A DNA stretch of 64,000 bases, from the NCBI RefSeq assembly GCF_032362555.1, contig NC_083532.1, positions 1,439,001-1,503,000 on the forward strand, given 5' to 3'. Made by a program: the position numbers and the translations under genes. A model generated the notes under the pieces. The model saw only the letters and a list, made by a program, of their open reading frames with translations, searched no databases and was not told where the DNA came from. This document shows positions 1-64,000 of this stretch, in pieces (position 1 is the stretch's first letter; each line of letters begins with the position of its first letter). The DNA comes from Amyelois transitella (lineage: Eukaryota; Arthropoda; Insecta; Lepidoptera; Pyralidae).

Positions 1-3000
1 TTTATATTTAAAAGAGGGTTAAAAGGTGCATTTAGTGTAGGAGGTATTTTCGGTAGATTATTTATTCTTGATAAGTATTCCGGAGAATTCTGTACTTCTA
101 ATGCTTGAGTGTTTCCCAAAATACTAGAATAATCATGATTTGGTTTTCGTTGCAACTTGTTTTGCAGGATATCGTTCGGATAGTTATTCAATGTATTTGC
201 ATTATTTGAAGATGCGACAGAATTTATAGGAACACTCGTTTGAATTGTGTCTAATGCTGCTTTAGATGAAAATGGATTTTGCATTGCTAAGTATTTTTCT
301 ATTTCATTAACTTCTTGGCGTCTTTTATCATTCTGCATTACAAAATTTGAAATGTCATTTTTGGCATACACGTTATTATTTAATACAGCGTTTTTATTCA
401 TGTTACTATTCAGTTGTTGTAACAAAATGTTTTTGTTTAGATTACTGACTAAATCATTATTTATTGTTTTAGGTATTTGATCAAGTTTATCAGCTTGAGT
501 AGTTGCCGCTTTGTGAAGATTTGTTAAGGATGGTAAATATTCAGATTTGGCATTAGATGGTATTTTGTTTGGTAAAATATTTGTTAATAATGAACCAATA
601 TTACTATTATTTGGATTGTTTGACCTAGTTGCTTGATTGTATTGTACAATCGGTGACATATTATTGATGCGTGAGTTCAGTGGTAGATTCAAAGATTGGT
701 TATTTAAAAATGCTTGTTTAGAAGTGCCTTGCAGTAAATTTTCCATATTTTGTGCATTTATTAGAGACTGTGTGACTCCAAAATTTTGTGGAAAGGCATT
801 CATGTCATTACTGGGTATATTGATTTGTTTCCCTTTGTTATATTTTAATAGATCATTAACATCATCTTTAGAAAGTTCTGCCGGATTTTGTATCGCACCT
901 TGTTTTTCTTGGGTAGCTGACGTTTTCATTATGTTATTATTTATTGTATTCATTAAGGAACCCACATTAAGAGAGTTTTGCAAATTATACTGTAATGAAT
1001 TTAACTGTGATGGTCTCGTCATTTGCTCAACTTGGGTATACGGAACGTTGGCTACATATGAACCTAAATTGGATTCTATCAATGCATTTTGTGTAGGAAC
1101 ATTATTTATTACATTTGATTGTAATGGTTTAACATTCGCTACAGTCGGACCTAAATGTGCCTCTAATAATGCGTTTTGAGCGGGAGAAAGAACATTATTA
1201 ATTGGATTTGATTGTATTGGACTCACATTTGGTACATTTGAAATTAAATTTGACTTTACTAATGAGTTTTGTACAGGAGAAATACCATTATTAATTATAT
1301 TTGGTTGCCTTACGTTTGCTAAATTAGGACCTGAATTTCCTTCTAATATAGCGCTTTGTGAAGGAAAAAGAACGCTTTTCATTGCATTGGACTGTGATAG
1401 TCTTGCGTTTGCTAGATTTTGACCTAAATTTGACTCCAATATCGTGTTTTCTGCAGGGGAAATGACATTGTTTATGTTAAACGATTGAACTGGTCTCACA
1501 TTTGAAGGTGTCATAAAATTCATATTTAAAGAATTCGTTTTAGATTCTTCGGTTTTTGATGATGCCAATTCATTTATAAGACTTGATTGAGCTACATTAG
1601 AAGTCTGGGGAGTCGCCAACTTGTCATTCTGCACATTCAATGAATGTTGCAATGCTGTTAACAAATTATTGTTTGTTCCTTTTGAATTGGCGATTGGATT
1701 AGATAATAGAGATTGAGAAGGTAAAGAATTGGCAACTGACAAACCTGACTGTGAAGCTGAAGTTTCTTTTACAGAATCGATATTCAATGAATTCTGTGTA
1801 AATTGAGATTTAGGTAATAATGATGATAATGACGGACTATTGACACCTGTAGGTATGTTAAATGTATTTCTAGAGTTCATTACCGAATCAGATTGACTTA
1901 AGATATCAGGAGTTCTAGATGCTAATTTAGATAATTGTGAAGTTGTATCGATGACTGAAGAAGTGATTGTATTCTTCGGTGATGTTGAAGCAGATGTTGG
2001 CTTGACTACAGCTGATTTACTCGAAATGTTTGACAAGGAACACTTCAGGCCAACTGCGGTCCAATATATCTGAAATTTAAGATTATTATTGATAACTATG
2101 TGAAAGAAGATGTAGTTACAGGAATAGAAAAGGGTATGTTAAGATGGTTTGGTCATGTGGAGAGGATGAATGAAAGCAGGTTGACTGAACAGATATACAA
2201 GGATAGTGTGGAGGGAAAGGTCAGAGTGGGAAGACCTGAACGAACGTATCTTGATCAAAATAAGGACGTCCTGGTATGGTGGCTTGCATGAAGAGAGTTA
2301 TGAATGTGGACCAAGCGAAGGAAGAATGCAGAGATCGTGGCAAGTGGAAAGAGGTAGTCTCTGCCTACCCCTCCGTGAAAAAGGCGCGATTTTACGTATA
2401 TATGTATGTATTATTGATAACAACTCTCATTTTAATGCCAATTGAAACCATTTCTTTCGAGACATTTCGAGACCAACGCCTTTGTCATACATACATACAA
2501 ATCACGTCCATATCCCTTGTTGGGTAGACAGCTCCAACACTCCTGAAAAGACTGATAGGCCATGTTCAAATGTGTGGTTTAATGATAGAATTGAGATTTG
2601 AATAGTGACAGGTTACTACCCCGTCGCCTAAGAGAAGAATCACAAGTTCCCAACGCCTCTGTCAACCTCACACAATCTCGGGTAGATTAAGAGACATAGA
2701 TAGACTGTTACCTGATATACAGTTTTAAAAAGGCTGGAAGGCTATTTTCAGCCGGATGGCTTAGATAATTGTGGTTCTGATAACCCCTGCAGTCCATAGT
2801 TTACATTTTACATCAGAGGCATACAATTAATAATAAAATTAACAAAGTAATGTTCGTATTAATGTATATTATTTAAAAGCGTGTTTTAGAAGAAATTTTA
2901 ATCCTTTTAGCCTTGTGGTTTTCGGTACTTTAGACACTCACTCTAAATCTTTGGATAACGTCAAAGGCGATTAAGGGACAGGCTTATGAACTTAGGATCC

Positions 3001-3274
3001 CTTATAGGCAATGGCTAGCAACCTGTCACTATTTGAATCTCAATTCCGTCATAAACATTGCTGAACGTGGCCTTTAAGTCCTTTCAAAACTGTTGACTCT
3101 GTCTACTCCGCAAGGAGTATAGACGTGACTATATGAATGTACATGCAAAGTAGTTTGAAAAGTTGATAATTATATAAAACGGGTGTTAGAAACACCCGTT
3201 ATGCTCATTGTTACAGAAAAATACAGTACCTGCGTCACACACAATGTCACACACAAAATATATTTGGCTTTCAT
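1..3274 (-). CDS. SSC1: long Asn/Ser/Leu-rich repetitive secreted protein (3' end outside window)
   Basis: Two exons. Exon 1 is 3274-3230 and encodes MKAKYILCVTLCVTQ, a signal-peptide core, followed by a GTACTG donor. Exon 2 starts at 2069 after a TTTCAG acceptor and stays open to base 3, where it leaves the window (689 codons seen, so at least 704 residues). No track start exists because the stop lies outside. The protein is rich in Asn, Ser, Leu, Thr and Gln. Its middle part (about 1080-1500) contains roughly 26-residue imperfect repeats of the type SPxQNALLExxLGPxxANVxxxQSNxINN, seen about five times. There are almost no Cys. The intron (about 1.16 kb) holds a LINE tail and two Rep-A copies. 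I do not recognise a named family. Asn/Leu richness resembles SSC14. The weak point is the exon-2 start, where the peptide IYWTAVGLKCS lacks the usual S-Q cleavage site; a LINE insertion ends only about 20-30 bases from the acceptor. Confidence 0.72.
2090..2420 (+). mobile_element. Rep-B: 3' end of a non-LTR retrotransposon (LINE), degenerate
   Basis: Codes for the C-terminal end of a LINE ORF2. One frame reads GMLRWFGHVERMNESRLTEQ with the typical GRP-x-RTY-x-DQ continuation; another frame supplies CMKRVMNVD and CRDRGKWKEVVSAYPS. The frame change shows an internal deletion or frameshift. The 3' end is TTTTACGTATATATGTATG, i.e. a microsatellite-like tail and no poly(A). It lies in the SSC1 intron, very close to the exon-2 acceptor. 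The tail style is RTE-like, but the clade is a guess. Other copies of the same end lie at 20293, 25505, 57433 and elsewhere. Confidence 0.75.
2485..2660 (-). repeat. Rep-A copy, 3' part
   Basis: In SSC1 intron, directly after the LINE tail. Confidence 0.55.
2955..3150 (+). repeat. Rep-A copy, lacks 5' hairpin
   Basis: In SSC1 intron, 80 bases from exon 1. Confidence 0.55.
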
Positions 3275-3664
3275 TCTAATAATTTATTTACTAAAAGAAA
3301 CCTCAACATAGGAATTATAAAATATTTCTTCGTCAATACAAAAAAAAAAAAAAAAAACTCCTGGACAAGTAGTAAAAAAGAAATAATGTCACTTCTTTGA
3401 AATTGGAACACAAATTGAACAAACCTATGCGATATTTTCGCGCGCTCTTTTATCGATTTTCGATTTGTAATAGAAATTTTTGTTGCAAAATTACATGATA
3501 CTCGTATCAATATTGAGTATCTTTTTAGTAATATACATAATCAGGTAAAAATTCACGAGGAATTATGTAAAATTATGCTAAGGTTGGTAAACATTAATTT
3601 TGACAGATAGCATTCTTTTTAAGGTAACAAATTTGACAAGAATTAAGTTAGAAAAGAAGATATT

Positions 3665-3850
3665 AATTATCTATACTAATATTATGAAGCTGAAGAGTTT
3701 CTTTGTTTGTTTGAACACGCTAATCTCAGGAACTACCTACTGGTTCGAATTGAAAAATTATTTTTGTGTTGAACAGACCATTTATCGAGGAAGGCTTTAG
3801 GCTATATAACATCACGCTGCAACTATTAGGAGCGAAGAAATAATGGAAAA
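3665..3850. repeat. Rep-E copy, partial, inverse orientation
   Basis: ATTATGAAGCTGAAGAGTTT to the AGGAGCGAAGAAATAATGG part. Confidence 0.5.
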
Positions 3851-3909
3851 TGTAAATAAAAAACAGAGCTAGTTTAAAGATAAAATTAATATACACATAA
3901 AGCTAAAAG

Positions 3910-4502: not shown

Positions 4503-5238
4503 ATGTGTCATTCTTTGGTTTTCTTTGCTTTTTCCGCTGCTTTCATGCAGGTAAATTATTATTTATTGTGCGTAATTTTATAACAAGAGTTAGGTCTCAA
4601 ATTAAAGAACATACGTACATATAATCACGTCTATATCCCTTGCGGGGTAGACAGAGCCAACAGTCTCGAAAATACTGAAATGCCAGCTGTTTGGCTTTAT
4701 GATAGAATGTAAATAGTCACAGGTTGCTAGTCTGTCGCCTAAAAGAAGAATCCCAAGTTTACAAGCCTATCCCATAGTTTTGTAGTTGTTGTTATAACAT
4801 GTTTTAAAAATGTCAATTATTTTTTTTCAGGTCGCGTTTTCCCAAGCCATTGTGCCGATTAACAGTCTACTTCCGAATCAGTTAGTCATAAACTCGCTGC
4901 CGAATCTAGTGTCACTTTCGCCGAATTTAGTGAGCTATGAGACTATCGACACCGTTGTTAAAACACCGATCGTGCAAGCTCCTATCGTGCAACAACCGAT
5001 CGTGCAAACTCCTATCGTGCAACAACCGATCGTGCAAGCCCCTGTCGTGCCAACAACGACTATAATACAAGACAGTACGGTTGCAAACAATTTGGCCAAT
5101 GCACTTCAACTTCTGATTGTCAGCAATTTATTAAGCAATACATTACCTTATATGGGCGATGTTATTGTTCCAAATTACGCATCAACTCTGGAGTTGGTGG
5201 CGCCTGTGTCTCTGGGCGGGTTGAGCTATGTATTTTAA
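4503..5238 (+). CDS. SSC2: secreted protein with IVQ-x-P pentapeptide repeats and NLANALQLLIV core
   Basis: Exon 1 (4503-4550) encodes MCHSLVFFAFSAAFMQ; donor GTAAAT. Exon 2 (4831-5238) follows TTTTTTTCAG in phase 0. The full protein is 151 residues. Signal cleavage is likely at AFS-Q, leaving an N-terminal Gln. The mature chain begins with Leu/Asn/Pro stretches, then about six IVQ-(A/Q/T)-P units written with nearly identical codons. It continues with VPTTTIIQDSTVANNLANAL, the hydrophobic core QLLIVSNLLSNTLP, and ends GGLSYVF. There is no Cys in the mature part. AATAAA signals begin within 10 bases of the stop. The second half is nearly the same as SSC3, which faces it from 8700, so the two look like an inverted duplicate pair. 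Function unknown. Confidence 0.85.
4608..4775 (-). repeat. Rep-A copy, 3' part
   Basis: In SSC2 intron. Confidence 0.6.
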
Positions 5239-16564: not shown

Positions 16565-17750
16565 ATGATAAGATTCAGATTCAGATTTATTTATTGCAAG
16601 TCACAAGTTATAAGTTGTTAAATAAATAGTAGGTACAAGTGACGCCCTGCAAGGGCACTGCAAACATGAGGGCAACTAGTTGCCACATTACTTACAAATT
16701 AAATTTGATTTACAGATTTTCGCTTTATGTAATAAAGAAATCAAAGTGAATTGGTAGGGAATTTATCGTCGAAAAATTCAGAAATATCATAATAACATTT
16801 ACCTACGAGTAGATTTTTAAGATCTTTAGCAAATATAGGGATTTTTTTAATATTTTTTATATAATTCGGGATATGGTTATATATTTTTATAGCCATATGA
16901 TGAGGGCTGGAAGAAACAAGTTTCATTTTAGTGATTGGTCTTTCTAGTATGTTGAGGTCTCTATTATTTCTTTTGTTTCTATTTATCCTTCGTATATACA
17001 GAGCCTCATGCTTCCTCACAAATTTGCATGCTTCTAGAATATATATAGATGTTAAGGTAAGAATTTTATGTTTTATGAAATATGTTCTGCAGGATGTCAT
17101 CTGGTCAATATTTACGAGTATTCTAACGATTTTCTTTTGTAGCGTAAATATATCATTAATTGTACAAGAGTTTCCCCATATAACTATGCCATATGACAGT
17201 CTGGAGTGGGCATATGCATAATAAGCGGCAAGGCAGGTTTTTAGGTCAGTTACCCGTTTAAGTTGGTGTAATGCATAAGTAAAAGATGAAATCTTATTTT
17301 TTAGTTTCTGAATATGTGGTTTCCAAGTCATGTTGGTATCTAATTCGATCCCCAATAAGGTCGCCGTGTCGACTGTTTTTAAATTAGTATTCTTATAATT
17401 AAAATCCAACTGCAATGGTCTTTTTTGTGATGGTTTAAATTGTAGTAATTTAGTTTTATTTAAATTAAGTTCTAAGTTATGTGTATCCAACCAATTTATT
17501 ATACTATCCATAGTAATATTTAATTTATTTTCTAGTTCAACTTCATCAGAACAGGATAGTAAAACCGATACATCGTCCGCAAAGAGTATGCACTCTTCTT
17601 TGATTTCGTCTGGGAGGTCATTGATGTATATGAGAAACAGAATACACCCTAAGACACTACCCTGCGGAATAGAGCCGGTGGAAACTGCTCTATTTGACCT
17701 AAAATATAGTGTGTGCCGGCTGCTTCTCTTTCCGAGCAGCAACTTGCGGC
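16565..17750 (-). mobile_element. 5'-truncated non-LTR retrotransposon (reverse transcriptase C-terminal half)
   Basis: An open minus-strand frame (to 16741) carries the RT motifs SIPQGSVLGCILFLIYINDL and catalytic FADD (in LFADDVSVLL), then the usual 'thumb' and C-terminal region with WKPHIQKLKNKIS and YGIVIWGN. Everything upstream of the RT palm (ORF1, endonuclease, N-terminal RT) is missing, so this is a 5'-truncated copy. The remaining frame is uninterrupted for about 340 residues, so it is fairly young. The 3' UTR runs to about 16570, ending in an ATTCAGATTCAGATTTATTT type sequence. Jockey-like superfamily is my best guess. Confidence 0.85.
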
Positions 17751-17889
17751 AAAAATATTTTTTTGTATGTAGGTATGTATCTATGTATGTTGGTAACACG
17801 ATAACTTTTGAACCGTTTATCTGATTTTGGTGAAATTTAAAATTTACATATGTAGCAATGTAAGCAATTTAACAAAAAAATAAAGTACA

Positions 17890-20761: not shown

Positions 20762-22828
20762 ATGGCGGCTTTTGTCGTTTTTTGTGTGGCGGCCCTGATT
20801 TTTCAGGTAGGTGGAAAATGCTGGAAAGAGATTTGTAGAACATTTTATAATTACTCTTGGACAATAGCTTTAAAGTTGTTTTTGCTTGTGTTAGACATCT
20901 AATTTCTTATCTGTTTGCTATTCATATGACATAGTATGTTTTAACATACATACATAGTTACGTCAATATCCCTTGCGGGGTAGACAGAGCCAAGAATCTT
21001 GAAAAGACTGATATGCCTCGTTCAGCTGTTTGGCTTTATGATAGAATTGAGATTCAAGCAGTGACAGGTTGCTAGCCTTTTGCCTAAAAAAAGAATCCCA
21101 AGTTTATAAGCCCATCCCTTTGTAGCCTTTTACGTCATCCACGAACAAGAGATGAAGTGGTCCTATTATTTTTTATTTTGGTGCCGGAAATCACACGGCA
21201 AATGTTTGTATGTTTTAAGCATTAAGCTAATTAATTGTATCCTCAAACCCTCAATGAAGTTTGGAAATAAATACTTGCAAACATTTTTGAATATTGAGAA
21301 GAGCATTATTGGTTGAATAGTTAAGTTGTTTGTAAAGGTGTGAGCACAAATTCGAATCCTACCACATCAGTGACTATTTTCGGAGATATGCACATTGATT
21401 GCCTACCGATGCTTTTACGGTGAGGGAAAACGGTAAGGCATCGCAATCAATAGGTACTTACCAGAATAATGAAGGCTTCAGAATCGAAGCTATGATCCTT
21501 CATGTGATGATCTACGCCACAATGGCGTACCTACTGCAGTGTCAGTCGAAAATACCAAATCACACTTCATTTTCAAGTAAAATTATTATATAGGATTATT
21601 AATTGGTAATATATTATTATACGGGATTTACCTTCAAACTCATAATTTTTCTAAGTACCTAGTATGCATTTTCAATTAAATTCTAATAAATGAGGCAAAT
21701 TAAAAAAAAAAATTGGTAATTTCAGATTAACAAACAAGTGTATATTCTCTTTTACAGGCATCCGCACAGCTAATTACTAGTCCTATGTTGGCTAAATCAT
21801 TCCTCCAACCCATACCGTCTCCAGTGCCACAAATTTGTCCAACAACATCCAATCTACCACTCCTTCCTATTAACAACTGCAAATTACCACAAACTCCATC
21901 GATTTTACCCGATTTACCTATTATACCTTTTACTTCATGCGTTTCTGTAACAAATCCTCCACCTGTTATTTCAACGACTGTAGTCGACAATTCTCTTGCT
22001 AACTCTTTAGCAAACACTCTGCAATTATTAATAGTAAGTGAATTATTAGAAGCTTCACTTACCCCTGCACCTGTTTCACCTTACATATCTAATCTTGTGC
22101 CTTTATACGAAGCTATAGGAACTATAGGAACTGTAGATATATTCACACCTATAGATGTAGCTACAGTTAATTATAATCCAGTTGTAGAAGTATCAACTGT
22201 AGTTACCGATGTGATTGCTCCAACTATTGCACCTGCTGTACCTCTCGTTGATATTAAAGAAGTACAGGCACCTATAGCATCATATGCTCCAGTGGTGACT
22301 GAAGTAGCACCATTGACAACGTACTCTCAAAATATATACGCCCCTGTTACTGAAATTATCGCTCCAGCACCTATAACTGAAGTTATTACACCTGTTACAT
22401 CAACAGTCACTAACATTTACGGTTCAATATATGAGGGTCAAGTGCCATTAGTGACAGAAGTAACTTCATCAATTCCTCCGATCCCAACGGTAGATGTTTT
22501 CACTTCAATCACTGATATCAATTCAATATCTGTTACTCCTACTCCGTTAATCAATCCATATTACGGTGTTACTGAATACTTCCAATCTCCATCTTGCGTG
22601 ACAGAAGTGTCTCAAATTTCAACGCCGATATCATACTTATCTGATTACTACTCAGGTTATGCTGATGTTATAACATCAGTGCCAACGACAGTGCCTTTTG
22701 CAGCTGAATTGATTCTTCCTCAGTCTATACCAGCTCAGATTGTTTGCAATTTTGGTTATTCTCCGCTAAATATTCCATTCGTCAGCATGAATGTGGAACC
22801 GGCGCCTATTGGTGGCTACGTCTTCTGA
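20762..22828 (+). CDS. SSC6: Thr/Val/Pro/Ile-rich secreted protein with NSLANTLQLLIV core
   Basis: Exon 1 (20762-20806) encodes MAAFVVFCVAALIFQ; donor GTAGGT. Exon 2 (21758-22828) follows TTTTACAG in phase 0 and starts ASAQLITSP (cleavage ASA-Q). Total 371 residues, the longest core-bearing member. The N-terminal 60 residues are Pro/Leu/Cys-containing. Then STTVVDNSLANSLANTLQ and LLIVSELLEASLTP (family core). The long C-terminal region is Val/Thr/Pro/Ile-rich with loose units such as VTEV, APVTEI and ITEVI, strongly beta-prone. It ends PIGGYVF, close to the GGLSYVF/GGYNIVY ends of SSC2/SSC3. A Rep-A copy lies in the intron. It faces SSC7 tail to tail. Confidence 0.88.
20945..21201 (-). repeat. 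Rep-A copy, full
   Basis: In SSC6 intron. Confidence 0.7.
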
Positions 22829-26999: not shown

Positions 27000-27822
27000 A
27001 TGTTCAAATTTTTTCTAATTTTTGGGGCTTTGGGCGTAAGTTGCATTTTTTTTTAAATGAAGGTTACGATTACATACTTACAAAACCTGACTTGCAATAA
27101 TGAGTTTCATCATTTTTTAAGTATTTTAGTACGTTCGACATGGTGATAGGTGAATTATGTAAAAGAAAATTATGTAAACAGTGTTAGTGTCTGTAGTTCA
27201 GTGGTACGATTTGAAAGCTTACACAAAAATATCCGGGTTCAAACACCAATACTTCTATGTACTAACTCTGTTGACTCTGAAGTTATGTACATTAGTTTGA
27301 ATACTAACCGATGCTCTTACGGCGAGGGATAACATCGTGAGGAACATGCACATTCGGCCAACTGGATGTGTAATCATGACCCAATATGGGTGGTAGGCAG
27401 AAGATTAGGTCGAATGCTGATGTGAGGAAAAACTTCATGAGGAAATCTGCACATTCATTCCCATCGTCTTAATTCCAAAGCCACTCATAATAAATCTTGG
27501 TATATTGGTCGATAAAAAGATAAAAATATTTTTTCAGCTATCGTCAGCCGCCATTCTTCCTATAGCGCGACCAGAACTAATCATATCCACGCTAGAAATT
27601 CCAGTTCTACCAAGTACATACGAACTGATCTTACCACCAGTTTCAGTTGAGCTCCCGTGCGGTTTAGGTTACTCAGTAGCCGGAGCTCCACTTGTGCCGG
27701 GCGCTTTTTCTACCAGCGGATATGGCTCGCTCGTGCCGCTGACGTCGCCGTGTTCTTGCACAAAACTGGCAACACCGTTGTGTGCTGAACTGAGGCGGTT
27801 TGCTAAGCCTATATTTTTGTAG
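27000..27822 (+). CDS. SSC8: short secreted protein, diverged PIPPP-tail member
   Basis: Exon 1 (27000-27035) encodes MFKFFLIFGALG; consensus donor GTAAGT. Exon 2 (27538-27822) follows TTTTTTCAG in phase 0 with LSSAAILPIARPE. Total 106 residues. Likely cleavage after SSA. Mature chain is Pro/Leu/Val with alternating charged residues, then Gly/Ser/Pro, a CSC motif, and the end LRRFAKPIFL. That end recalls the YLKKIPIPPPCI tail of SSC11. No NLANALQ core. The intron carries a SINE of the Rep-D type (27187-27470). I assign it to the cluster from architecture and tail only. Confidence 0.75.
27187..27470 (+). repeat. Rep-D SINE copy in SSC8 intron
   Basis: Diverged head (GTCTGTAGTTCAGTGGTACG) and a partly duplicated body. 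Confidence 0.55.
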
Positions 27823-29008: not shown

Positions 29009-29397
29009 CGATGTTTTCGTGCACTTCCATTTTTCCTTTTATTTCAAATAATATATATCTACCTTGTTTTTGTTTTAATAGTTTTTGTTTATTTTTAGGG
29101 TAGATAATTTGTAGCTTTATTTAGTTCAATCAGTTTATGACATGATCCTTCAATGACAATTAATGTCATTGACATCTGTTATTCTTTTTTTTTTTTTTTT
29201 AAGTTCGTGTGTCTTTTTAATTGTTAAATAGCATATAGAGCCCACATATATGGTAGGCTTACTCTTATTGTTTAAATTTAATGTCTGGCAAGAAAATTGT
29301 ACCACTATTGTTATATTTTAGGAATTTTAATTAGTTTTATATACCTTAAATTTATTTTTATTATTTAGGATATTTTATTTATTTATTGTTACACTCT

Positions 29398-31293: not shown

Positions 31294-31364
<71 letters not shown>

Positions 31365-32334
31365 TTTGTCCTGCAAAACTGCTTACGCGGTTTGACTGCA
31401 GTATTAATATTCCGTTTCAATATCCGTTTTAATATTGATAATAAAAAGCTTACCGTACTTGTTCTTCTTGATTTCACAAGTGCTTTTAATACTGTCGATT
31501 TCGATATTTTGGTTGAAATTTTACGTACTTTAAATTTTTCCTCAAATGCCCTCTGTTGGTTTTCATCTTACCTTACTGGTCGTAAACAACGTATAAAATT
31601 GAATGATTGCTTCTCAGATTGGTGTGATCTAGTAGCTGGTGTTCCGCAGGGTGGCATTCTTTCTCCGGTTCTGTTCTCAATATTCGTTGATGGTATTACT
31701 GCATCTCTTTCCTCTAATTTTCATCTTTATGCCGATGACTTACAGATCTATGCGTCTGCTAGTTTGGATGATATTAATGATGCTTTTAGTACCATTAATT
31801 CGGATTTGGAGAGGATTGCAGATTGGTCAAGCCGTTTTGGTCTTTTAGTTAATGCTGCCAAGTCACAGGCCATTGTTATTGGTAGTCCGCATTATATTTC
31901 GAAATTGGAAAATGTGATGGTTCCTAGCCTAGTTCTGAATAACAATATTATTCCTTTATCTCCCAAAGTGACTAATCTGGGTATCATCATTGACCAGACT
32001 CTCTCGTGGATTCCCTATATTAATGAAATCAGCCGTAAGATGTATGTGTCGTTACACTCACTTCGCCGAATGCAAAAATTTTTACCCGTCGTCACTAAAG
32101 TTGTGCTTGTTCAGTCGCTTCTCTTTCCTCTTCTAGATTATTCCGATGTTGCTTGTTTGAACATTACTGAGGAATTGCTTGACAAGTTAGAGCGTTTACA
32201 AAACCAGGGCATTCGCTTTGTTTTCGGTCTTCGTAAGTTCGATCATGTTTCACAGTTTCGTCGCCAATTGAATTGGCTCCCAATTCGCCTTAGACGTAAT
32301 GTTCACACACTATCTCTCTTGTTTAATGTCCTTT
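29398..32334 (+). pseudogene. LINE ORF2: endonuclease and reverse transcriptase, interrupted
   Basis: Begins MADVFGNSSGDDYFSLSS. The apurinic-type endonuclease domain shows INAQSIPEH, SESFL, GGVAIYLRGD and MGDFNTCL. RT begins WKLAHIIPLPKRNSPSSPSH then LRPISILSVLSKILE and SFQSGFKCGHSTTTALVKI. After an approximately 200-base insertion it resumes with LVLLDFTSAFNTVDFDILVE, GVPQGGILSPVLFSIFVDGI and the catalytic YADD (in HLYADDLQIY). Translation stops shortly after ITDDILRIYESL at 31233 because of the inserted DNA, so this copy cannot make full ORF2. The last ORF2 segment lies beyond the inner LINE at 35780-35990 (LWNDLPQDTR motif). Confidence 0.85.
31230..31435 (-). repeat. Insertion with a 63-base T run inside LINE ORF2
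   Basis: T run from 31299 to 31361, flanked by unmatched AT-rich sequence, sits exactly where RT continuity is lost. On the minus strand it reads as a poly(A) tract, so a short reverse-orientation retrocopy is one reading. Phenylalanine- or lysine-only reading frames here are artefacts of the homopolymer. Confidence 0.55.
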
Positions 32335-39226: not shown

Positions 39227-39470
39227 GGCCTCTGTGGCGCAGCGGTAGTGCGCTTGTCTGTGACACCGGAGGTCCCGGGTTCGAATCCCGGCCAGGGCAT
39301 GATGAGAAAAGAACTTTTTCTGATTGGCCTGGGTCTTGGATGTTTATCTATATAAATAGGTATTTATTATAAAAATATAGTATCGTTGAGTTGGTATCTC
39401 GTAACACAAGTCTCGAACTTACTTCGAGGTTAACTCAATCTGTTTAATTTGTCCCGGATATTTATTTATT
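39227..39470 (+). repeat. Rep-C: tRNA-derived SINE, reference copy
   Basis: Head GGCCTCTGTGGCGCAGCGGT with box B GGTTCGAATCC is clearly tRNA-derived. Body continues through GATTGGCCTGGGTCTTGGAT and ends near AATTTGTCCCGGATATTTA. About 240 bases. Confidence 0.75.
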
Positions 39471-40904: not shown

Positions 40905-42068
40905 ATGATTTCGTGGTATTTATTTTCGCTGCTGGGAATTTTGGTGGTAAGTTATTTTATTTAGAATTGAAAAAACATAATAATTATATATTTAAACTTC
41001 ATTGCATAAAATACAAATGTACCTATAGCACAATTGGCGGACTAAATGCTAGAAGCATTATCTACCAGCCAACCATTGGGTCTGACAGAGAACTTTATGT
41101 GGGGTCAAACTAAACTTTCTACCTTTTAATTCACATCTTCCTCCTGACCTTACCCCCGGTTCCAGCCTCACCTCTCTGGAGAGAAGCTCATGGTGCGGCG
41201 TTGACCAAAATCTTGGATTGGTTGAGTCAGGTTTTTACACAGTGCCGTGTGGTTTCTGGCACTTTAGAAATAGAAGCACTCCATACCTTTCCCATGGATG
41301 TAGTAAAAGGCGATTAAGGGATAGACTGGCTGATGGGCTAGCAACTGTCACTTCAGTCCTTTCAGTCTTCGAGACTTATGCCTCTGTCTACCCCGTAAGA
41401 GATATAGTATGTAAATGTTTCCTTTATAGTTCCAGACGAATGCTTCAATTCTGAAGAAAAGCGTCGTCGTGTCAAGTGGCCCCAACCTACCCCTTGCGAA
41501 CTTGCCCCTTGCAAATTTGCCCCTAGCCAATTATCCCCTAAACCTACCTCTACTCCCCGAATGTGGGTGCAAATTTCCCCTAATCCCTGAAATCATAACC
41601 CCTATAGAAGTCCCGCTTTGCAGTAATGTACCAACTTGTGCATGTCCAAATCCAATAATAGAAATACCCACTTACTACTCTCCACCCGTGTCAGTACCAT
41701 CGTGTGGGTCCTGCAACAGTTTTTCAACAGCCGTCGAGCTGGCCTTGTCAGGGTCAGGTATACCGTCTTGTAGCTGCTCAAATTCAGCCTGCGGGTGTAC
41801 CGGCTCCATATGTGGATGTTCGCCCCCCACTTGTGGAAGCCCCGTGCCTTGTGGGACTAAAGTGGATGTACCAGCGTATTATTACTCGCCGTCAGTCGAC
41901 GTGTGCGGGGGATGTGGGGGGTGCGGCGATCCCCTGTGCTCGTGCGGGGCATACGTATCCCCGCTGGTGACCCCTTGCGGGTGTGCCCCGACTTTACCCC
42001 CGTTTCCCCCCGCGCTGGGGTGCACGAAGTATTTGAGACAGGTCGTGATTCAACCCCCGTTTTTGTGA
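40905..42068 (+). CDS. SSC9: Cys/Gly/Pro-rich secreted protein
   Basis: Exon 1 (40905-40946) encodes MISWYLFSLLGILV; donor GTAAGT. Exon 2 starts at 41430 (TATAG acceptor, FQTNASILKK) or six bases later at 41436 (TNASILKK); both are in frame. It ends at 42068, total 226 or 224 residues. N-terminal part: NLPLANLPLANLPLAN-type repeats. Middle and C-terminal: many CGC, CSC, CGGCGGCG and CGSP motifs with YYSP units (AYYYSPSVDVCGGCG). The end is LRQVVIQPPFL, similar to the PIPPP-tail group. Cys density is far above the other members and exon 2 is unusually C-rich and GC-rich for this window. Dense Cys-Gly arms are known from high-cysteine lepidopteran chorion proteins, where they cross-link; the similarity here is of composition only. 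Confidence 0.82.
41125..41238 (-). repeat. Rep-D SINE 3' fragment in SSC9 intron
   Basis: Starts in the CTTCCTCCTGACCTTACC end and stops at GTGTAAAAACC. Confidence 0.5.
41243..41412 (+). repeat. Rep-A copy, internally deleted
   Basis: In SSC9 intron, about 15 bases from the acceptor. Confidence 0.55.
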
Positions 42069-43128: not shown

Positions 43129-45102
43129 ATGAATAAAACTATCCGGAGCAGTGGTAGAAAGGTTATTCATAGAGTGTTCTTGCATTGTTTGGCAGAACAA
43201 GAAGCTGGAGAAATTACTCATGCAATTGATGATGTTTATAGACGAACAGCCGAAATGACAGGTATTTATTTATATGTAATTATTATTTAGTCATAGAATA
43301 TAGTAATAAAACATTGTTTTAATGATTTTAAGTACTAAGATCATAAGATATTGTGAAAAATAGATTTTAACTTCAACGCTATTTGAAGGTTATGTTTTGC
43401 AAATTTGCAATGACATGTATACTAGGACAACGTAAGATTGATCATTAATTTTTTTTTCACACAATTATTTTTATTTTTAGGTGTTAGTATAAACACTGTC
43501 CGAAATATTGAAAAAGAAGGTGCTAGAAATAAGGGCGTGTTTTCTACACCAGGAAAACATAGAAAAGGTCGTCCAAAAAAGGTTTTGGACAATTTTGATT
43601 TGTCAGCCATAAGACAAAAGGTTCATTTTTTCTATGTGGTGAAAAAACAGGTAATTTTTTTTTATTTATTATATTATATAAACATTTTCATAAAATTATT
43701 GAAATTGGCCCCTTGGTACGGTGTGAGAGCATTACACATAGACCAAGTTATTTTCGAATGTAAATAATTAAGTTAAATAATTTTCACATATTGTTATGCC
43801 GGATGTCATCATTGATGACAGTGGTTAAGCCATGTCAGTCAGATTTCTATACGCAGCAGCTTAAAAAAACTGACACCAGTGTTGGCCACTTACATACCCA
43901 AGAAATAACATATTGTAACCAAATCTTAATAAGTATTTTTTATTTTAGGTGCCCACTCTTCGTAATCTGCTACCTGTTATTAAAGCAGATTTAAATTATG
44001 ATGGAAGTCGGGAACACCTGCGAAAAGTATTACTTTCACTGGGTTTTAAATATAAAAAATGCCAGTCTGATAGGTCAGCCCTGATAGAAAAAACTGACAT
44101 AGCTCTCAAGAGAGAAAAATATCTTAAAATCATTTTAGATAACAGAAATTTGCCAGAGGAACTGAGAAAAAATATTATATATTTAGATGAGAGCTATGTT
44201 CATGCCTCATATAAATTAAAAAAATGCTGGCAGTCAATGGATGTTAGTGGAATAAAAGAAAATGTGAGCAAAGGCAAGCGGTACATTATTGTACATGCTG
44301 GCAGTGAGAAGGGATTTGTTCCGAATGCCTTATTGATTTTCAGCGGAAATAATCAGAATGAGGACTATCACTCTGAAATGAACCATTACAATTTTACGAA
44401 ATGGGTTAAAGATAAATTAATCCCAAATCTCACTGAGGCTAGTATAATAGTCATGGACAATGCGCCCTACCACTCAGTAGTACTAAATAAGGCACCAACA
44501 AGCGCAACTAAAGTTGCCGAAATTAAAGTATGGCTTGAAGATAATGGCGTGCCGTTTGAGGACTCATTGCGCAAGCCGGAGCTTTTGACATTAGTAAAAC
44601 GCCATAAACCGGCCCCTCTTTATGAAATAGATGAGATTTTAGGAGAACATGGTCACACAGTGGTACGACTTCCACCTTACCATTGCGATTTAAACCCAAT
44701 TGAATTAATTTGGGGGATCGCTAAGCATAAAATTGCATCAAATAATGTGTGCTCAACTGATATAAAGGTAAAGGTTCTCTTATTAACTTTTATTCAGTAG
44801 ACTATGAGTTTGATTATTACTAGCTTTAATTTTCGTCTAAATGTTTTTTGTAGATGGCAGCTCAGCAAGCATTTGAAAGTATCTCTGTGGAAAATTGGGT
44901 AAATTCATGCAGACATGTTATGAAAATTGAAAAGGAGTATTTTGAGAGAGGCAGAACTTTATACACTGATATAGAGCAATTAGTCATTCCTGTAAATGAT
45001 GACAGCAGCAGTGAAGAGTCATCAGAATCCTGTTATTCTGACATAGCAGGAACGTCAACCCAAGATGCTGTCTTCTCAGGTGTAGAATACGTGGATGAAT
45101 AA
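43129..45102 (+). CDS. Intact four-exon DDE transposase, IS630/Tc1/mariner superfamily (DD82E-like)
   Basis: Exons 43129-43261, 43481-43650, 43949-44767, 44854-45102; 456 residues with no stop or frameshift. All introns have GT-AG ends and in-frame joins (first intron phase 1, the others phase 0). Helix-turn-helix region: GVSINTVRNIEKEGARNKG, then a basic GRPKK motif. Catalytic residues: D in IIYLDESYVH, D in IVMDNAPYHS, E in LNPIELIWG. Between the second D and the E there are 81 residues, against 34 in classical Tc1/mariner. The extra segment (VWLEDNGVPFEDSLRK...) is typical of the long-spacer group that I know as Sailor/DD82E. The acidic C-terminus (DDSSSEESSESCYSD) is unusual. No convincing terminal inverted repeats were seen. 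It is either a recently active transposon or a host-adopted gene. Confidence 0.85.
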
Positions 45103-46980: not shown

Positions 46981-47508
46981 ATGGGGCATGTCATCATAAT
47001 CGCCATTTTGGCAATCGCAGCGGTCCCAGAGATCCTCCCTGCGGTGCTACCGAAAGCGAATCCTATGGGTGCTCTTCTCCAAAACATCTTAAACCCGGCC
47101 AACTCAGAAAGAGCTAAACAAATATTACAACTAACCGGTGCAGTCAATAAAGTACCCACAAACCCTGTGTTCAATTTACTGCAAGAAGTAGCTGTACCGA
47201 GAACAAGCCCAGTTATAGTACAAGACTTACCACGGCAAGTTCTACCGGTTCCGCAATTTCAAGAGGTGGCCCAATATCCGAGCAGACCAGTTATACAAGA
47301 GAGGGTGTACCCTTACGCGTCAAATGTGCCGTATGTCGGACAAATTCTGCCAAACTCCCCCGTGCCTTTGGTGAACCCATTTCTGCCTGCCGCGTCCCCT
47401 GTTTCTGCCATTGCGCCGCCGACTTCGAACCTGCTTCCGCCTGTAGATCCGACTCAAGTGAGGAGCCACTTTTTGAGGAAAATACCTATTCCACCGCCGT
47501 CGTTGTAG
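46981..47508 (+). CDS. SSC10: Pro/Val-rich secreted protein, intronless, PIPPP tail
   Basis: Single exon, 175 residues. The signal peptide is MGHVIIIAILAIAAVPEILP, all inside this exon; this is the one cluster member without the split signal. The mature chain has a helix-prone segment (GALLQNILNPANSERAKQIL), then Pro/Val/Gln/Tyr-rich sequence, VNPFLPAASPVSAIAPP, and ends FLRKIPIPPPSL. The last 50 residues match SSC11 (LNPFLPVASPVSALANPFLP and YLKKIPIPPPCI), which faces it tail to tail. An AG acceptor-like TTACAG lies ten bases before the ATG. An alternative first exon at 46652-46702 ending in GTAAGT can be drawn, but its peptide is not signal-like. Confidence 0.8.
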   Translation: MGHVIIIAILAIAAVPEILPAVLPKANPMGALLQNILNPANSERAKQILQLTGAVNKVPTNPVFNLLQEVAVPRTSPVIVQDLPRQVLPVPQFQEVAQYPSRPVIQERVYPYASNVPYVGQILPNSPVPLVNPFLPAASPVSAIAPPTSNLLPPVDPTQVRSHFLRKIPIPPPSL

Positions 47509-49645: not shown

Positions 49646-50478
49646 ATGAAGGCATATTTGGTTGCTTTAATTAATGTTTTAATTATTCAGGTGAGTGCAA
49701 TTGTCTTGAAAAAAACAGGACTACAGCGAAAATTGCTAGGATGATAACATATAATCACGTCTATATCCCTCGCGGTGAAGACAGAACCAACAGTCTGAAA
49801 AGACTGAAAGGCCACGTTTAGCGGTATGGCTTTACGATGGAATTGAGATTCAAATATTGACAGGTTATAAGCCCATCGCCACCAGAAGAATCCCAAACTA
49901 ATTAGCCTTTCTCTTTGTCGCCTTTTACGACATCAATGGTAAAGATATGGAGTACGTAGCACACATCAGATTAGGTAGACTTAGAGACAAAATGTTTATT
50001 TGTCAGTGCTACAAGCATAAAACGTTGTTGATTATTTATTTATGATAACATATTTTTTTAAATACTTCTTTGTTTCCAGCATTCAATGGGCCAGTCACCA
50101 ATCTTGGAATACTACACGCAGAACATCAAATGCTACTTCGGATCCCCGTCTTCATTGCCATCTCTGCCAAGTTTATTACCACCTTTGCCAAAATTTACTA
50201 CACTATTGCCACCTCTGCCAAATTCAGCGCCGCTTCTGCCAAAACCAGCACCGCTTCTGCCAAATCCAGCGCCGCTTCTGCCAAATCCAGCGACGCTTCT
50301 GCCGAATCCATTACCGCCTTTTTTGTCATTTTCAAGTTCATTCTCCCCCTTGGCTAGTCCATTTTCTCCCCTACCTGGTCTTTTATCGCCATTTGTAAGT
50401 CCATATCCGTATTTAAGTCCATTTTTGGCTGGTAAAAGCGTATGTTTTAGTAAACCTATACCGCCACCTTTCATTTGA
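49646..50478 (+). CDS. SSC12: Leu/Pro repeat secreted protein with PIPPP tail
   Basis: Exon 1 (49646-49690) encodes MKAYLVALINVLIIQ; donor GTGAGT. Exon 2 (50080-50478) follows TTTCCAG in phase 0, starting HSMGQSPILEYYTQN. Total 147 residues. The middle is a Leu/Pro array of units such as LLPPLPKF, LLPNPAP and LLPNPAT whose codons are nearly identical. A Ser/Pro/Phe stretch follows (SPLASPFSPLPG), and the end is CFSKPIPPPFI. The tail places it with SSC10 and SSC11. Only two Cys. Other frames through the repeats are open because of the short repeat period but are shadows. Confidence 0.83.
49748..49950 (-). repeat. Rep-A copy
   Basis: In SSC12 intron. Confidence 0.6.
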
Positions 50479-52558: not shown

Positions 52559-53113
52559 ATGTTGAAAATATTCTGTTGTCTTGTTTTACAAATAATTTTC
52601 ATAACGGTAAGAATTTTTTTATAAATAACTAGGTACTTACGAGTTAAGAAATTATTTCTCCAAAAATTCAATTGAGTATATTTCTGTTACTATAGAATTT
52701 TAGGAAAAATAATAGATACTTTATAAAAAAAATCACTGTATGCATAATGACGTATCTTCTTTTTTTTTCAGACTGTCAATTCCCAAGTGATACAGCCAAA
52801 GGCAATTCAAATACATCAACATACTCAGCAGTCGTTCAAAACGGTACCACAATCGAACCAAATGAATATAAATTTATCACAATTCACACACACGCCGATT
52901 TCTTCCGAGAAAATTAATACTATCGTTTCAGCCTTGCAAAAACAGCGGGCGGAAACCAATATGGCCGCTAAACGTCACAAAAATCATTTCTTGGCGGACA
53001 TCTTGAAAGAATCCGCTATAAAAAGTCTAATGGCTGCAAGGGAGGCTAATAAAGATGATAAATTCAAAAATGGAATCACGATCTCGAAGACCACGACGCG
53101 TGTGATTGGCTGA
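52559..53113 (+). CDS. SSC13: small Gln/Lys-rich secreted protein
   Basis: Exon 1 (52559-52606) encodes MLKIFCCLVLQIIFIT; donor GTAAGA. Exon 2 (52772-53113) follows TTTTTTCAG in phase 0, starting TVNSQVIQPKAIQ (cleavage VNS-Q). Total 129 residues. First half Gln/Asn/Thr/His; second half basic and helical (NTIVSALQKQRAETNMAAKR, ESAIKSLMAAREANK). No Pro repeats, no NLANALQ core, no PIPPP tail. It belongs to the cluster by architecture and by the V-N-S-Q junction shared with SSC3 and SSC11. AATAAA lies about 60 bases after the stop. The intron is only 165 bases and free of repeats. Confidence 0.82.
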
Positions 53114-55371: not shown

Positions 55372-57355
55372 ATGAAAGAATTATGGATTATAACTATAGC
55401 CTGTGTACAGGTAAGTTCATTTTCAACATCAAAACCCTAGGTTAGATAGTAAATTCCGGGTTTGAAACTCTGTGGCGCAGCGGTAGTACGCTTGTCTGTG
55501 ACACCGGAGGTCCCAGGTTCGAATCTCGGCCAGGGCACGATGAAAAAATAACTTTTACTGATTGGCCTTGGTCTTGGATGTTTATCTATATAAGTATTTG
55601 TTATAAAATATAGTATCGTTGAGTTAGTCTCTCGTAACACTAGTCTCGAACTTCCTTCGGGGCTAACTCAATCTGTGTAGTTGTTCTGTATATATTTATT
55701 TATTATTATTTATTATTTTAACTAGCTTTGCGTTCACCCGCGTTAATTTATCATACTTAAACATACATACTAACATATAATCACGTCTATATCCCTTGCG
55801 GGTTAGACAGAGCCAACAGTCTTGAAAAGACTGATTGGCCACGTTCACCTGTTTAAATTATGTTAAATTATCATTCCAATAACTTTCAGTTTTAATGGAA
55901 TTTTTAGAAACATGTAACTTAAGTCTCTACCAGATATTATGCCTGATTCATACGCTCTTAGCGCTCAATCAGTGTAATTTGTCCCGTATATACGAGTATT
56001 TATTTACGAGTACCTAAAGATGCAACCGTGGACCATATGATCATAGTGTTGTCAGACGACGGACAGATATGTGATTAATCTGATCATTTTCCTTTCAGGC
56101 ATTACTCGCCCAATTCAACCCAACTCTTCCAAATGGATATAGCTTCACACAAAACTCACCAGGAAACAATTTTCTTGCATCACAGCGAAACAATGGAGTT
56201 CAGATAAATAATGGAATGAATCGTTTACAAGTTGGTAATCTACCTATAAACCAATTGCCAAATGTTTCGCCAAATATGCCAGTGAATTTGGCAAATAATT
56301 TGCCAACGAATATACCAATCAATTTACCCAATGTATATTCAAACAATGTTCAAAATAATTTACAAATTGCAAATAGATTACCGAACTTGCCTGTACCGAA
56401 CAGACTGGCGAATTTTCAACAACAAAATTATCCGATAGCAAATTATGGAAATTTCGTACAAAACGTTCCTTTGCAAAATAATTATGCACTCAATAATTTA
56501 CCAAACAATATACAGCTGAGTAATTTACCCATCGGGAATTTTCCGATAGGCAATAATTATCAAATAAACAATTTACCTGTTCCTAATTTACCACTTAATA
56601 ATAATTTACCAAATAATCTTAATCTTTTACTAAACAATTACGCTTCAGCTAATATGCCACAGTCATACAATATAGGGTTTTCAAACATACCAGGATTAAA
56701 TAATTTAGTACTTAACAATTTGGCAAATACTAATGTACGAATTCCTAATAATAACCAAGTGTCATTGTTAAATAATGCTCAGTTATATAGTAATGCTCAA
56801 ACAAATAATTTACCATACGCCAATAATTTAATATCAGCGAATTATCTCCAAGCGAATCCTGCTAACAATTTACAAATTGGCAACGTGCCTGTAAATTTTA
56901 ACTTGCCTAACAATTATCCAATAAATTATAATTTAGCAAATACAAATCCCAATTCAGTAGCAAATGTAAATAATTTACAAACAAATAATTTACAGTTGGC
57001 CAATATGCCAATAACCAACAACGCTCAAATGAATGGCTTGCCAGTAAATAATTTATACAATTTCAATGCTCCAAACAATTTGATGACAAACATTGGCCAA
57101 ACATTACCAACATCTTTGATCCAACCAAATCAAAATCTGCTTCAAAATCCAAATAGTGTAAGTTTTGGTAATGACTGTGGATGCAAAGCGAACGCCATGT
57201 TTTTATTAGACGACAATGTTGCCAATTCTTTGCCAACTACGCCAGTCGTATCGTTGAGTGGCATGCAACTTAGCCAACTTGGGAAAACGCCATTGTTCAA
57301 CGGGTTGCCAGTGATTGGCTTGACAGAAAGTATTGTAAATTTGAAGCCACTTTAG
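55372..57355 (+). CDS. SSC14: Asn/Leu/Pro-rich repetitive secreted protein
   Basis: Exon 1 (55372-55410) encodes MKELWIITIACVQ; donor GTAAGT. Exon 2 (56099-57355) follows CCTTTCAG in phase 0, starting ALLAQFNPTLPNG (cleavage LLA-Q). Total 431 residues. Asn and Leu dominate, with short irregular units NLP-x-N, NNLPN, PIGN, INNLP and IANR covering almost the whole chain. The C-terminal 75 residues are less repetitive and hold the only Cys pair (NDCGCKANAMFLLDDN), then GLPVIGLTESIVNLKPL. Asn/Leu richness resembles SSC1. A GATA cluster lies upstream. The intron carries SINE Rep-C and a Rep-A piece. Confidence 0.87.
55467..55705 (+). repeat. Rep-C SINE, full copy in SSC14 intron
   Basis: Head TGTGGCGCAGCGGTAGTACG to tail TAACTCAATCTGTGTAG. 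Confidence 0.7.
55765..55855 (-). repeat. Rep-A copy, 3' end
   Basis: In SSC14 intron. Confidence 0.5.
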
Positions 57356-60406: not shown

Positions 60407-61908
60407 ATGAATAGTATTTACGTTATCGTGGTTTTCTTGTGTTTGCAAGTAAGTAGTTTTTAACCCACAACCTGAAAGAGGGGTTTTATAGTTTGTACAT
60501 GTAGATAAATATGATTTTGGAAGTAAATTGATAGATATATACGGGACAAATTACACAGATAGATTTAGCCTCGAAGTAAGTTCGAAACTAATTTAACGAG
60601 GGTGGACAACCCTTATCACTAAGGGGTATGAAAAATTAATGTTGGCCGATTCTAAGATCTATTCAATATGCTCACAAAATTTCATGAGAATCGATCAAAC
60701 CGTTTCAGAGGAGTACGGGAACGAACATTGTGACACGAGAATTTTATATATAAGATACATTATGTATGTATATTCGAAATAGTTCATTTTTCATCATATT
60801 CTGTTTTAATTATTACTTCACAGGAATTAACAGGAGCGAGCTACTACAGAATTCCGAAGAGATACTTCAAATCACCACGACAAGAACGAAAACAAATCAA
60901 AAATATTCCTCAAAAAATACCAGCAAGAAACAAACCTATATTTGTAGCTTTACCAGAAAAAGCGCAGATTGTAGCTGAAGAAATAGCTGAACCTGATATA
61001 GCTTTATCATTATCCGAAAAAGCTATAATAGAACAGACTGTAACACAAAAAATTGAACTAGAAATTGATGGAATTATTTCAAAAGACGAAACCACTCCAG
61101 ATTTGAAAAATCACCAGCCAGTTACTAAATACAAATTGCCCGATGATATAGTAGTTCAAAATTTAAAAACTTACCAGCCAGTTTTGAAATACGAATTGCC
61201 TAAGATGACCGCTTTGCCAATTTTGACAATTCTGCCAATAGTGGCTGCGTTACCTGTGGTGAATGTCAAACCAAGGTCACTAGATGTGTTGCCAGATTCG
61301 GAAATTGTAGATGATGGTAATTTATCGGGTGTAGATAAGGTAACACCATCTGAAGAAGTTGGTGATGGTGGAATTTCTATAGATGCTTTTCAAGAGGTAA
61401 ATTAACAAAAAAGAATGCTTATAATCATACATTTTATCAGGTCTATATCCCTTGCGGGGTACACAGAGTCAAAAGTTTTTAAAAGACTGATAGGCCACGT
61501 TTAGCTGTGTGGCTTAATGATAGAGTTAAGAGCTTAAAAGTGACAGGTTGCTAGCCCATCGCCAAATCGAAGAATCTCAAGTTTATAAGCCTATTGTGGA
61601 TTGATTTTATAATTGTTTGAAAGAAGGTTTTCTGAGGAAGGTTTATTTAAATGCTACCCGTGCAAAGCCGGGGCGGGTCGCTAGTGTATGTACCTTTACC
61701 AGTAGGCACGCTAATGACATCATCACATAAGATTATGTCATCTGTAAAACAATTTTGTTTTAATTTTTTCATTATTTTGTTTCAGATTAAATACCAAATT
61801 GTCGAGAGGACACCAAAGAAGTCACAAATTTTGCACAAAATTCGTAGAATTGAAGAGTTTAAACGTAATATTTTTGTAGACCATAGACGGGAAGAATTAA
61901 AAAATTGA
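60407..61908 (+). CDS. SSC16: charged secreted protein, three exons
   Basis: Exon 1 (60407-60448) encodes MNSIYVIVVFLCLQ; donor GTAAGT. Exon 2 (60824-61396) follows TTCACAG, phase 0, starting ELTGASYYRIPKRYF. Exon 3 (61786-61908) follows TTGTTTCAG and codes IKYQIVERTPKKSQILHKIR to a stop. Total 245 residues. If the second intron is kept, translation ends after two extra residues (VN). N-terminal mature part is strongly basic, the middle acidic and helix-prone (EKAQIVAEEIAEPDIALSLS), with a twofold repeat HQPVTKYKLPDD / YQPVLKYELPKM. Then a hydrophobic LPILTILPIVAALPVV stretch. Unlike the rest it is highly charged; it may be a matrix protein or a processed precursor (KR, RR sites present). Confidence 0.75.
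60537..60600 (-). repeat. Rep-C SINE 3' fragment in SSC16 intron
   Basis: ACGGGACAAATTACACAGAT followed by the CGAAGTAAGTTCG part. Confidence 0.5.
60600..60757. repeat. Rep-G copy in SSC16 intron
   Basis: Inverse orientation; ends GTGACACGAGAATTTTATAT. Confidence 0.45.
61435..61595 (-). repeat. Rep-A copy, 3' part
   Basis: In SSC16 second intron. Confidence 0.5.
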
Positions 61909-63114: not shown

Positions 63115-63290
63115 CTCAGTTCAGCTATTTGGCTTTAAGATAGAATTGAGATTCAAATAGTGATAGGTTGCTAGCCCATCGCGTAAAAGAAGAATCCCAG
63201 GTTTATAAGCCTACCCCTTAGTCGCCTTTTACGACATCCATGGGAGAGTGATGGAGTGGTCCTATTCTTTTTTCTATTTGGTGCCGGCAC
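63115..63290 (-). repeat. Rep-A copy, 5' part
   Basis: Upstream of SSC17. Confidence 0.55.
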
Positions 63291-63562
63291 TATCCTTTAA
63301 TAATGAAAAGCAAAAAAAATTGAATTTGATAGTTAATGAGTTACAAGTTTATATGTAGGTACAGAACCATTGAATTGAAATCAAAATGTACAAACTACTT
63401 TACAAAACTGCAGTGACAATTAATACCTTAGACTTATAACTCTGCTATCGACACGGAATACTCGTCATTTAAGAAGTTCAAGCGATAAGCACGAACGGAC
63501 ACACACGTCAGTACATTTTGAGATAAAGAAGACACCTGCTTAACAATGTATGTATATATATA

Positions 63563-63570
63563 TATATAAG
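63563..63570 (+). promoter_or_regulatory. TATA box of SSC17
   Basis: TATATAAG at the end of a TA repeat, 50-57 bases before the start; same octamer as SSC9. GATA motifs lie near 63503 and 63521. Confidence 0.45.
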
Positions 63571-63619
63571 AAAACAATCCTTTGTTTTGCAAACCACTCG
63601 TTATTGCGACATAGTTATC

Positions 63620-64000
63620 ATGTCCACTAATAAAAAGATTTGCATGTTATTATTTGTGTTGTTCTGTGAAGCTATTGCGTTGGTACGTCATATTTTTATT
63701 TATTTAATCTTACATTATATCACGTCTATATCCCTTGCGGGATAGACAGAGCTGTGCCGTGTGGTTCCCGGCACCAATAGGAAAAAGAATAGGTCTACTC
63801 CATCACTCTCCCATGGATGTCGTAAAAAGCGACTAAGGGGTAGGCTTATAAACTTGGGATTCTTCTTTTAGGCGACGGGCTAGCAACCCGTCACTATTTG
63901 AACCTCAATTCCATCATAAAGCCAAACAGCTGAATGTGGCCTATCAGTCTTTACAAGACTGTTAGCTCTGTCCACCCCGCAAGGGATATAGACATAATTA
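63620..64000 (+). CDS. SSC17: first (signal-peptide) exon only, rest outside window
   Basis: Exon 1 is 63620-63682, 21 codons, beginning MSTNKKICMLLFVLFC and ending AIAL before a GTACGT donor, phase 0. It matches the first-exon pattern of the cluster. The second exon lies beyond base 64000; the intron contains Rep-A sequence. Nothing can be said about the mature protein. Confidence 0.6.
63752..64000 (+). repeat. Rep-A copy, full, at window end
   Basis: In SSC17 intron; inserted beside or into an older minus-strand Rep-A fragment (63719-63751). Confidence 0.7.

Follow-up and report, generated by a model that had tools for sequence, protein, structure and literature searches.

A row of two-exon secreted-protein genes beside the chorion locus of Amyelois transitella, a probable eggshell-protein cluster

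Results

The stretch of Amyelois transitella DNA analyzed here, 64,000 nucleotides long and hereafter called the window (C28:1439001-1503000 on contig NC_083532.1, in a genome of 327 Mb and 33 contigs), holds a row of 15 genes for putative secreted proteins beside the chorion cluster, and all but one of these genes open with a very short hydrophobic exon. Both strands were scanned for a short hydrophobic exon 1 followed by a long exon 2, and unclear cases were finished by hand; one scan left the intron phase free and later scans demanded phase 0. The genes, named G0 to G13 and G15 (G14 was a candidate that was later dropped), run from the left window edge to 61.4 kb. They occupy both strands, as had been described in an earlier, sequence-only reading of the same DNA. 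That reading had counted 17 genes, 16 of them split; we recovered 14 two-exon genes, one of which has a weak exon 1, and a single intronless one, whereas the other two were not found. Each split gene has a hydrophobic exon 1 of 12-17 codons (12-21 had been proposed), a GT donor and then the main exon, and all nine genes that appeared in the phase-free scan (G2, G5, G6, G7, G8, G11, G12, G13 and G15) have the phase-0 intron that had been predicted.

Five of the genes share a helix motif around LA-x-x-LQL (LAN-x-LQL; LANALQLL). These are G1 (plus strand, exon 1 4503-4550, exon 2 4831-5238; 151 amino acids), G2 (minus strand, 8702-8652 and 8179-7724; 168 amino acids), G3 (minus strand, 13272-13222 and 12725-11958; 272 amino acids), in which the motif has diverged, G5 (plus strand, 20762-20806 and 21758-22828; 371 amino acids) and the Cys-bearing G6 (minus strand, 24869-24819 and 24358-23882; 175 amino acids). 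Among 70 candidates, 28 proteins are homologous to G1 at E <= 0.001, the best being a Plodia protein (61%); the 22 that could be named come from 19 species, namely 18 moths and the butterfly Danaus chrysippus, and are called uncharacterized, hypothetical or unnamed. Plodia LOC128681487, Galleria LOC113520476, Manduca LOC115439807 and Bombyx mandarina LOC114251150, all uncharacterised homologues of G1/G2, carry the TIIQDSTVANNLANALQLL motif, and none of the papers searched mentions the locus numbers of six homologues of this family. The homologues of G1 include P0016 from Bombyx mandarina, and Plodia, Achroia and Tuta have two G1-family proteins each, with near-consecutive names or on contigs of equal size.

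When G1 exon 2 is aligned with the 28 homologues, all 19 invariant columns fall within one 29-residue stretch. Mean pairwise identity reaches 92% in the motif region, as against 32% in the signal, 41% in the N-terminal arm and 41% in the C-terminal arm (19 of 22 rows, the 22 being G1 and 21 of the 28 homologues; P0011, P0022 and P0028, whose starts are odd, were excluded). For G1 exon 2, AlphaFold2 predicts a single helix at residues 82-102, with block means of 72 and 80 in the predicted local distance difference test (pLDDT), and disorder outside it (mean pLDDT 51, predicted template modeling score 0.23).

A second family is formed by G7 (plus strand, 27000-27035 and 27538-27822), the Cys/Pro-rich G8 (plus strand, 40905-40946 and 41436-42068; 224 amino acids), G9 (plus strand, a single coding exon at 46981-47508), G10 (minus strand, 48798-48760 and 48399-48151) and the Pro/Leu-rich G11 (plus strand, 49646-49690 and 50080-50478; 147 amino acids). 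G9 is evidently the gene that had been called SSC10 and, correctly, intronless. The five have a common C-terminus, which in G9, G10 and G11 is of the type K-x(0-2)-P-I-P-P-P-x-[IL]; its gapless score is 160, whereas none of 10,000 shuffles that preserved composition exceeded 37. The score applies to a length of 13 residues picked after sight of the match.

The remaining genes are G0 (minus strand, exon 1 of 15 codons at 3274-3230, exon 2 from 2069 through 1), G4 (minus strand, 19291-19250 and 18805-18242; 201 amino acids), G12 (plus strand, 52559-52606 and 52772-53113; 129 amino acids), the Asn/Leu/Pro-rich G13 (plus strand, 55372-55410 and 56099-57355; 431 amino acids) and the charged G15 (plus strand, 60407-60448 and 60824-61405; 207 amino acids), whose exon 2 starts without [SA]Q. 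The N/S/P/L-rich exon 2 of G0 extends 1734 bases left of the window and exceeds 1,200 codons, and its exon-1 donor, GTACTG, is weak. G4, which is Cys-bearing and stands outside the helix-motif family, has one homologue, the uncharacterised Galleria LOC116413770 (45% over the full length); since the Galleria homologues of G4 and G1 lie on contigs of the same size (4,117,443 bases), they are probably linked there too. An AlphaFold2 model of G4 from two sequences was meaningless (mean pLDDT 31). For G0, G12, G13 and G15 no demonstrable sequence link to other window genes was found. Common descent of all members, as proposed in the sequence-only reading, is therefore borne out by sequence within G1/G2/G3/G5/G6 and within G7-G11, whereas for G0, G4, G12, G13 and G15 gene structure and place are what speak for it. 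Signal-like exons at 59296 (minus) and 63620 (plus) were dropped when no convincing second exon was found for them, the latter also because a better first exon for R1, a gene in the right flank, lies at 66066.

How far these models exceed chance was gauged with a fixed exon-pair rule, defined only once the genes had been seen: an ATG and 11-21 codons, hydrophobic and with a decent donor, an intron of 60-1500 bp, a pyrimidine-rich acceptor and an exon 2 of at least 100 codons. The window gave 12 pairs, of which 11 are genes and one is a wrong join (27000, plus strand, to 28421), the only pair in which exon 1 of G7 was caught; G0, G9 and G10 are missed. No pair arose in any of 40 dinucleotide shuffles of the window or in six 10-kb control pieces (60 kb) of the same genome, while the right flank, which bears the chorion genes, gave 13 pairs in 100 kb and the left flank two in 40 kb. 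When [SAG]Q was also demanded close to the beginning of exon 2, eight pairs remained in the window, 11 to the right, and none to the left or in the controls. Splicing is supported by G1 and G4, which align with Plodia LOC128681487 and Galleria LOC116413770, respectively, across 100% of their spliced length. In the homologue predictions P0002, P0014 and P0026 an apparent T-rich intron end, read by eye, runs into exon 2 at the same residue.

A genome search with Chorion_1 (PF01723) gave at least 16 matches, the total being a lower bound. Fourteen lie at C28:1512795-1577089, one at C28:2010002 and one on another contig; none falls inside the window. The nearest of the 14 is 9.8 kb from the window edge and all of them are within 10-74 kb to its right, which places the window in the chorion locus. 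PMC4639761 counts ODC antizyme and DHFR among the five non-chorion genes that the silkworm chorion locus contains; here, both lie on the contig of the window, at C28:2.037-2.043 Mb. The lone off-locus match is at C8:9415743-9416114; in Bombyx, too, one chorion-like gene stands apart from the locus, on chromosome 12 (PMC4639761).

Window and chorion genes also share their anatomy. Across the exon junction (slash), chorion genes of the right flank, at window coordinates 82-140 kb, read MSTFAFLLLCIQACLIQ/QAYSQ and MAVKVTLVLCGLVLTIQ/TAFAQ, and in 18 chorion-side models with both exons, exon 1 usually ends in Q and is followed by a phase-0 intron and then xx[SAG]Q. Window genes read MCHSLVFFAFSAAFMQ/VAFSQ, MAAFVVFCVAALIFQ/ASAQ, MKELWIITIACVQ/ALLAQ and the like; exceptions to the plan are G7, G8 and G15, which lack the Q at the start of exon 2, and G2, G7, G8, G10 and G12, in which exon 1 does not end in Q. 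A minor exon 1 of about 50 nt with a major exon 2, by which PMC4639761 defines chorion genes, is present in 14 of the 15 window genes, where exon 1 encodes most of a signal peptide and exon 2 a low-complexity chain.

By sequence, a link to chorion showed at the N-terminus only, in the G1 family. Its profile aligned to chorion in the first 24-26 residues, at E 6e-4 with the B type and 7e-4 with the A type (each for a single pair), and a profile of the window paralogues reached E 0.027. Thirteen of 23 sequences (22 aligned G1-family members and G2) have a gapless signal peptide of 22 residues. Of the residues that characterize chorion signal peptides (C10, Q12, Q/N17, Q22), C10 occurs in eight, Q12 in 11 and N/Q17 in 12 of these 13. 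Permutation of chorion columns 5-17, done for these G1-family sequences against five A-type and five B-type models, gave p 0.0026 (A), 0.047 (B) and 0.002 (A+B), values that are optimistic because the sequences are related. Chorion_1 is matched at E <= 10 by two of 22 G1-family members; the stronger match, that of Tuta P0025, spans profile positions 1-27 with E 0.012, which is below the curated cut-off. A derivation of LANALQLL from the core of B-type chorion is tempting by eye, but was set aside, as the profile comparison aligned signal peptides only.

In the right flank, at window coordinates 66066-77861, four two-exon genes (R1-R4) separate the cluster from the classical chorion genes. R3 and R4 match Chorion_1 over the cut-off. 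R2, just outside the window, scores only 7.9 bits to that family; it combines N/L-rich arms, like those of G13 by eye, with a chorion A-type core (59% identity over 44 residues), and is possibly an intermediate. R1 was rejected as a link to chorion, having no homologue at E 0.001, no Pfam match and no significant match to R2. On the left, about 2.0-5.4 kb from the window, a plus-strand two-exon model (658 amino acids, charged, N/K/E-rich, exon 1 MINLLFFYLSASTL) means that the cluster may go on in that direction. Farther left, L012 (about 8.3-8.8 kb) and L011 (11.0-12.0 kb) are Leu-rich, secreted-looking frames, alike by eye, and possibly another small family bordering the cluster.

Other features of the window include reverse-transcriptase frames (RVT_1, of the type without long terminal repeats) at 16741-17868 (minus), 29350-32471 (plus) and 32586-35210 (minus), one of which also matches Exo_endo_phos_2, a mariner-like DDE_3 transposase frame at 43949-44800 (plus), and a tRNA-His found by ARAGORN at 39228-39299 (plus), between members of the cluster.

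Discussion

We consider it likely that the window is the shoulder of the chorion locus, a cluster of eggshell-protein genes of the ovary and its follicle cells, and it is very probably the counterpart of an ovary-specific cluster in Bombyx. PMC3755909 describes, on Bombyx chromosome 2, a group of 12 ovary-specific genes directly upstream of the chorion genes (Gene000814-821, 824, 825, 827 and 828; about 100 kb), of unknown function and with no database homologues. According to PMC4639761, 23 ovary-specific non-chorion proteins were found in the silkworm eggshell by liquid chromatography-mass spectrometry, most of their genes being clustered on chromosomes 2 and 15. Like the Bombyx cluster, the window has a row of genes without a known family directly beside the chorion cluster. 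Our literature search listed, besides PMC3755909, no paper on such a cluster among its matches (titles and starts of abstracts), and, among the papers searched, six of the Gene0008xx names were mentioned in PMC3755909 only.

The window genes adjoin the Chorion_1 genes and resemble them in having a first exon of some 50 nt, a main second exon and a phase-0 junction that closely precedes the cleavage site; in part of the G1 family the signal-peptide pattern, too, appears to be of the chorion type. They differ in having no chorion core, no Gly-rich repeats and no close divergent A/B pairs, and their proteins have a helix motif or a Pro-rich C-terminus instead. The proteins are thus chorion-like in build and probably in use, but they are not Chorion_1 members, since Pfam returned no Chorion_1 match for them. 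Location and the silkworm literature favour secretion and a role in the eggshell matrix.

Several observations weigh against this interpretation. First, none of the 15 genes exceeded any curated Pfam cut-off, and none was listed for Chorion_1. Below the cut-off, matches of G12 to PF10824 (E 0.0018), of G2 to PF03940 (E 0.093) and, for the part of G0 in the window, only to PF20726 (E 0.0086) were taken as chance; NCBIfam (seven proteins) and two PDB sequence searches likewise gave nothing over the cut-off for window genes. The statement of the sequence-only reading that no named family fits is therefore right by sequence, although it missed the context of an adjoining chorion locus with the same gene anatomy. 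Second, profiles of the G1 family and of the window paralogues did not align with chorion past the signal peptide. Third, the start codons of the divergent neighbours G0/G1, G4/G5, G6/G7 and G10/G11 are 0.85-2.1 kb apart, whereas the chorion model pairs C8/C9, C11/C12 and C14/C15 are about 250 bp apart, so that close pairing of A and B types is unmatched in the window. Fourth, the Bombyx cluster and the window are likened by place and description, not gene by gene. Finally, the chorion hexamer TCACGT is no mark of the window genes, nor of the chorion genes here: it occurs within 400 bp upstream of four of 14 window genes and five of 15 chorion genes. It also occurs in a repeat found here many times, and is absent from window and chorion genes between 150 and 35 bp upstream of the start codon.

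In that same interval, in which several other patterns were tried without correction, WGATAR was modestly enriched, with 14 sites in the 15 window genes (7.3 expected, p 0.021) and 17 in 15 non-independent chorion genes (8.0 expected, p 0.0045). TATA-like boxes were enriched to a similar degree (p 0.04 window, p 0.02 chorion) and a C/EBP-like pattern was not (p 0.095 and p 0.48). These promoter patterns neither support nor refute common regulation with the chorion genes.

How such genes came to stand here can be explained in more than one way. It is quite conceivable, if short of probable, that they are true chorion paralogues, namely early-type genes in which exon 1 survives but exon 2 has diverged so fast that the chorion core is gone. 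The exon plan and place shared with chorion genes and the likeness of the signal peptides are consistent with this, as are R1 and R2, which resemble intermediates by place and composition. However, Pfam and profile comparison detected no chorion core in exon 2, and the motif of G1 is a predicted helix, whereas a beta-rich structure is ascribed to chorion cores. Fast divergence has a precedent in Bombyx, where the early chorion genes evolve fastest, with less than 50% identity and variable introns (PMC4639761).

We rate as rather unlikely the alternative that chorion promoters and signal exons were joined several times to unrelated second exons. It would explain why similarity to chorion ends around residue 26, close to the splice junction, and no exon-2 sequence common to different subfamilies was found; moreover, as the phase-0 intron immediately precedes the cleavage site, any open frame can be appended. 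Yet no donor of any exon 2 was identified, and fast divergence would look the same. A fuller version is no less doubtful: the chorion promoter and signal exon might act as a cassette repeatedly coupled to unrelated low-complexity second exons, with the LANALQLL family later nearly frozen across Ditrysia while its arms diverged.

It is improbable that these are unrelated secreted genes (cuticle, silk, accessory gland) lying beside the chorion genes by chance, with a convergently split signal peptide. Short first exons with signal peptides do occur in other insect secreted proteins, no Pfam link was found, and the 40 kb to the left also give two exon pairs by the rule. Against this stand the exon junction after Q and before xx[SAG]Q, the position-by-position match of the signal peptides to chorion, and the ovary-specific expression of the Bombyx counterpart, as given in PMC3755909. 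Finally, although the weak donor of G0, the absence from G12 and G15 of motifs in common with others, the two claimed genes not found and the transposon frames at 16.7-17.9, 28-35.2 and 43.9-44.8 kb could suggest that some models are artefacts of a transposon-rich region (chance open frames or pseudogenes), this is very unlikely given the zero pairs in 40 shuffles and in the 60-kb control and the full-length homologues of G1 and G4.

If the window is indeed an ovarian eggshell-protein cluster, its genes would be transcribed by follicle cells during eggshell formation, as the Bombyx cluster suggests. Splicing would bring the hydrophobic stretch from exon 1 together with the cleavage site encoded by exon 2; the signal would be cut near xx[SAG]Q, and the chain would then be secreted. 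The low-complexity disordered arms may tolerate change and fill or space the framework, and, judging from conservation, the helix of the first family, the cysteines of G6 and G8 and the Pro-rich C-terminus of the second family may hold neighbours together. At least the 5' end would be of common descent with the chorion genes, exon 2 having diverged freely or been replaced.

Taken together, what appears to be new here is the chorion-type 5' plan, the helix motif found across Ditrysia, and the subfamilies, including one with a common C-terminus. A silkworm cluster noted only as being of unknown function gains a structural identity, and a nearly invariant helix motif provides a family definition for uncharacterized proteins of 19 named lepidopteran species. 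If second exons were in fact coupled to a chorion cassette, the chorion locus would be a place that creates new eggshell proteins. The contrast between a constant short helix and the changing remainder of a fast-evolving protein, probably one of the eggshell, bears on how the extracellular matrix proteins of insects originate.

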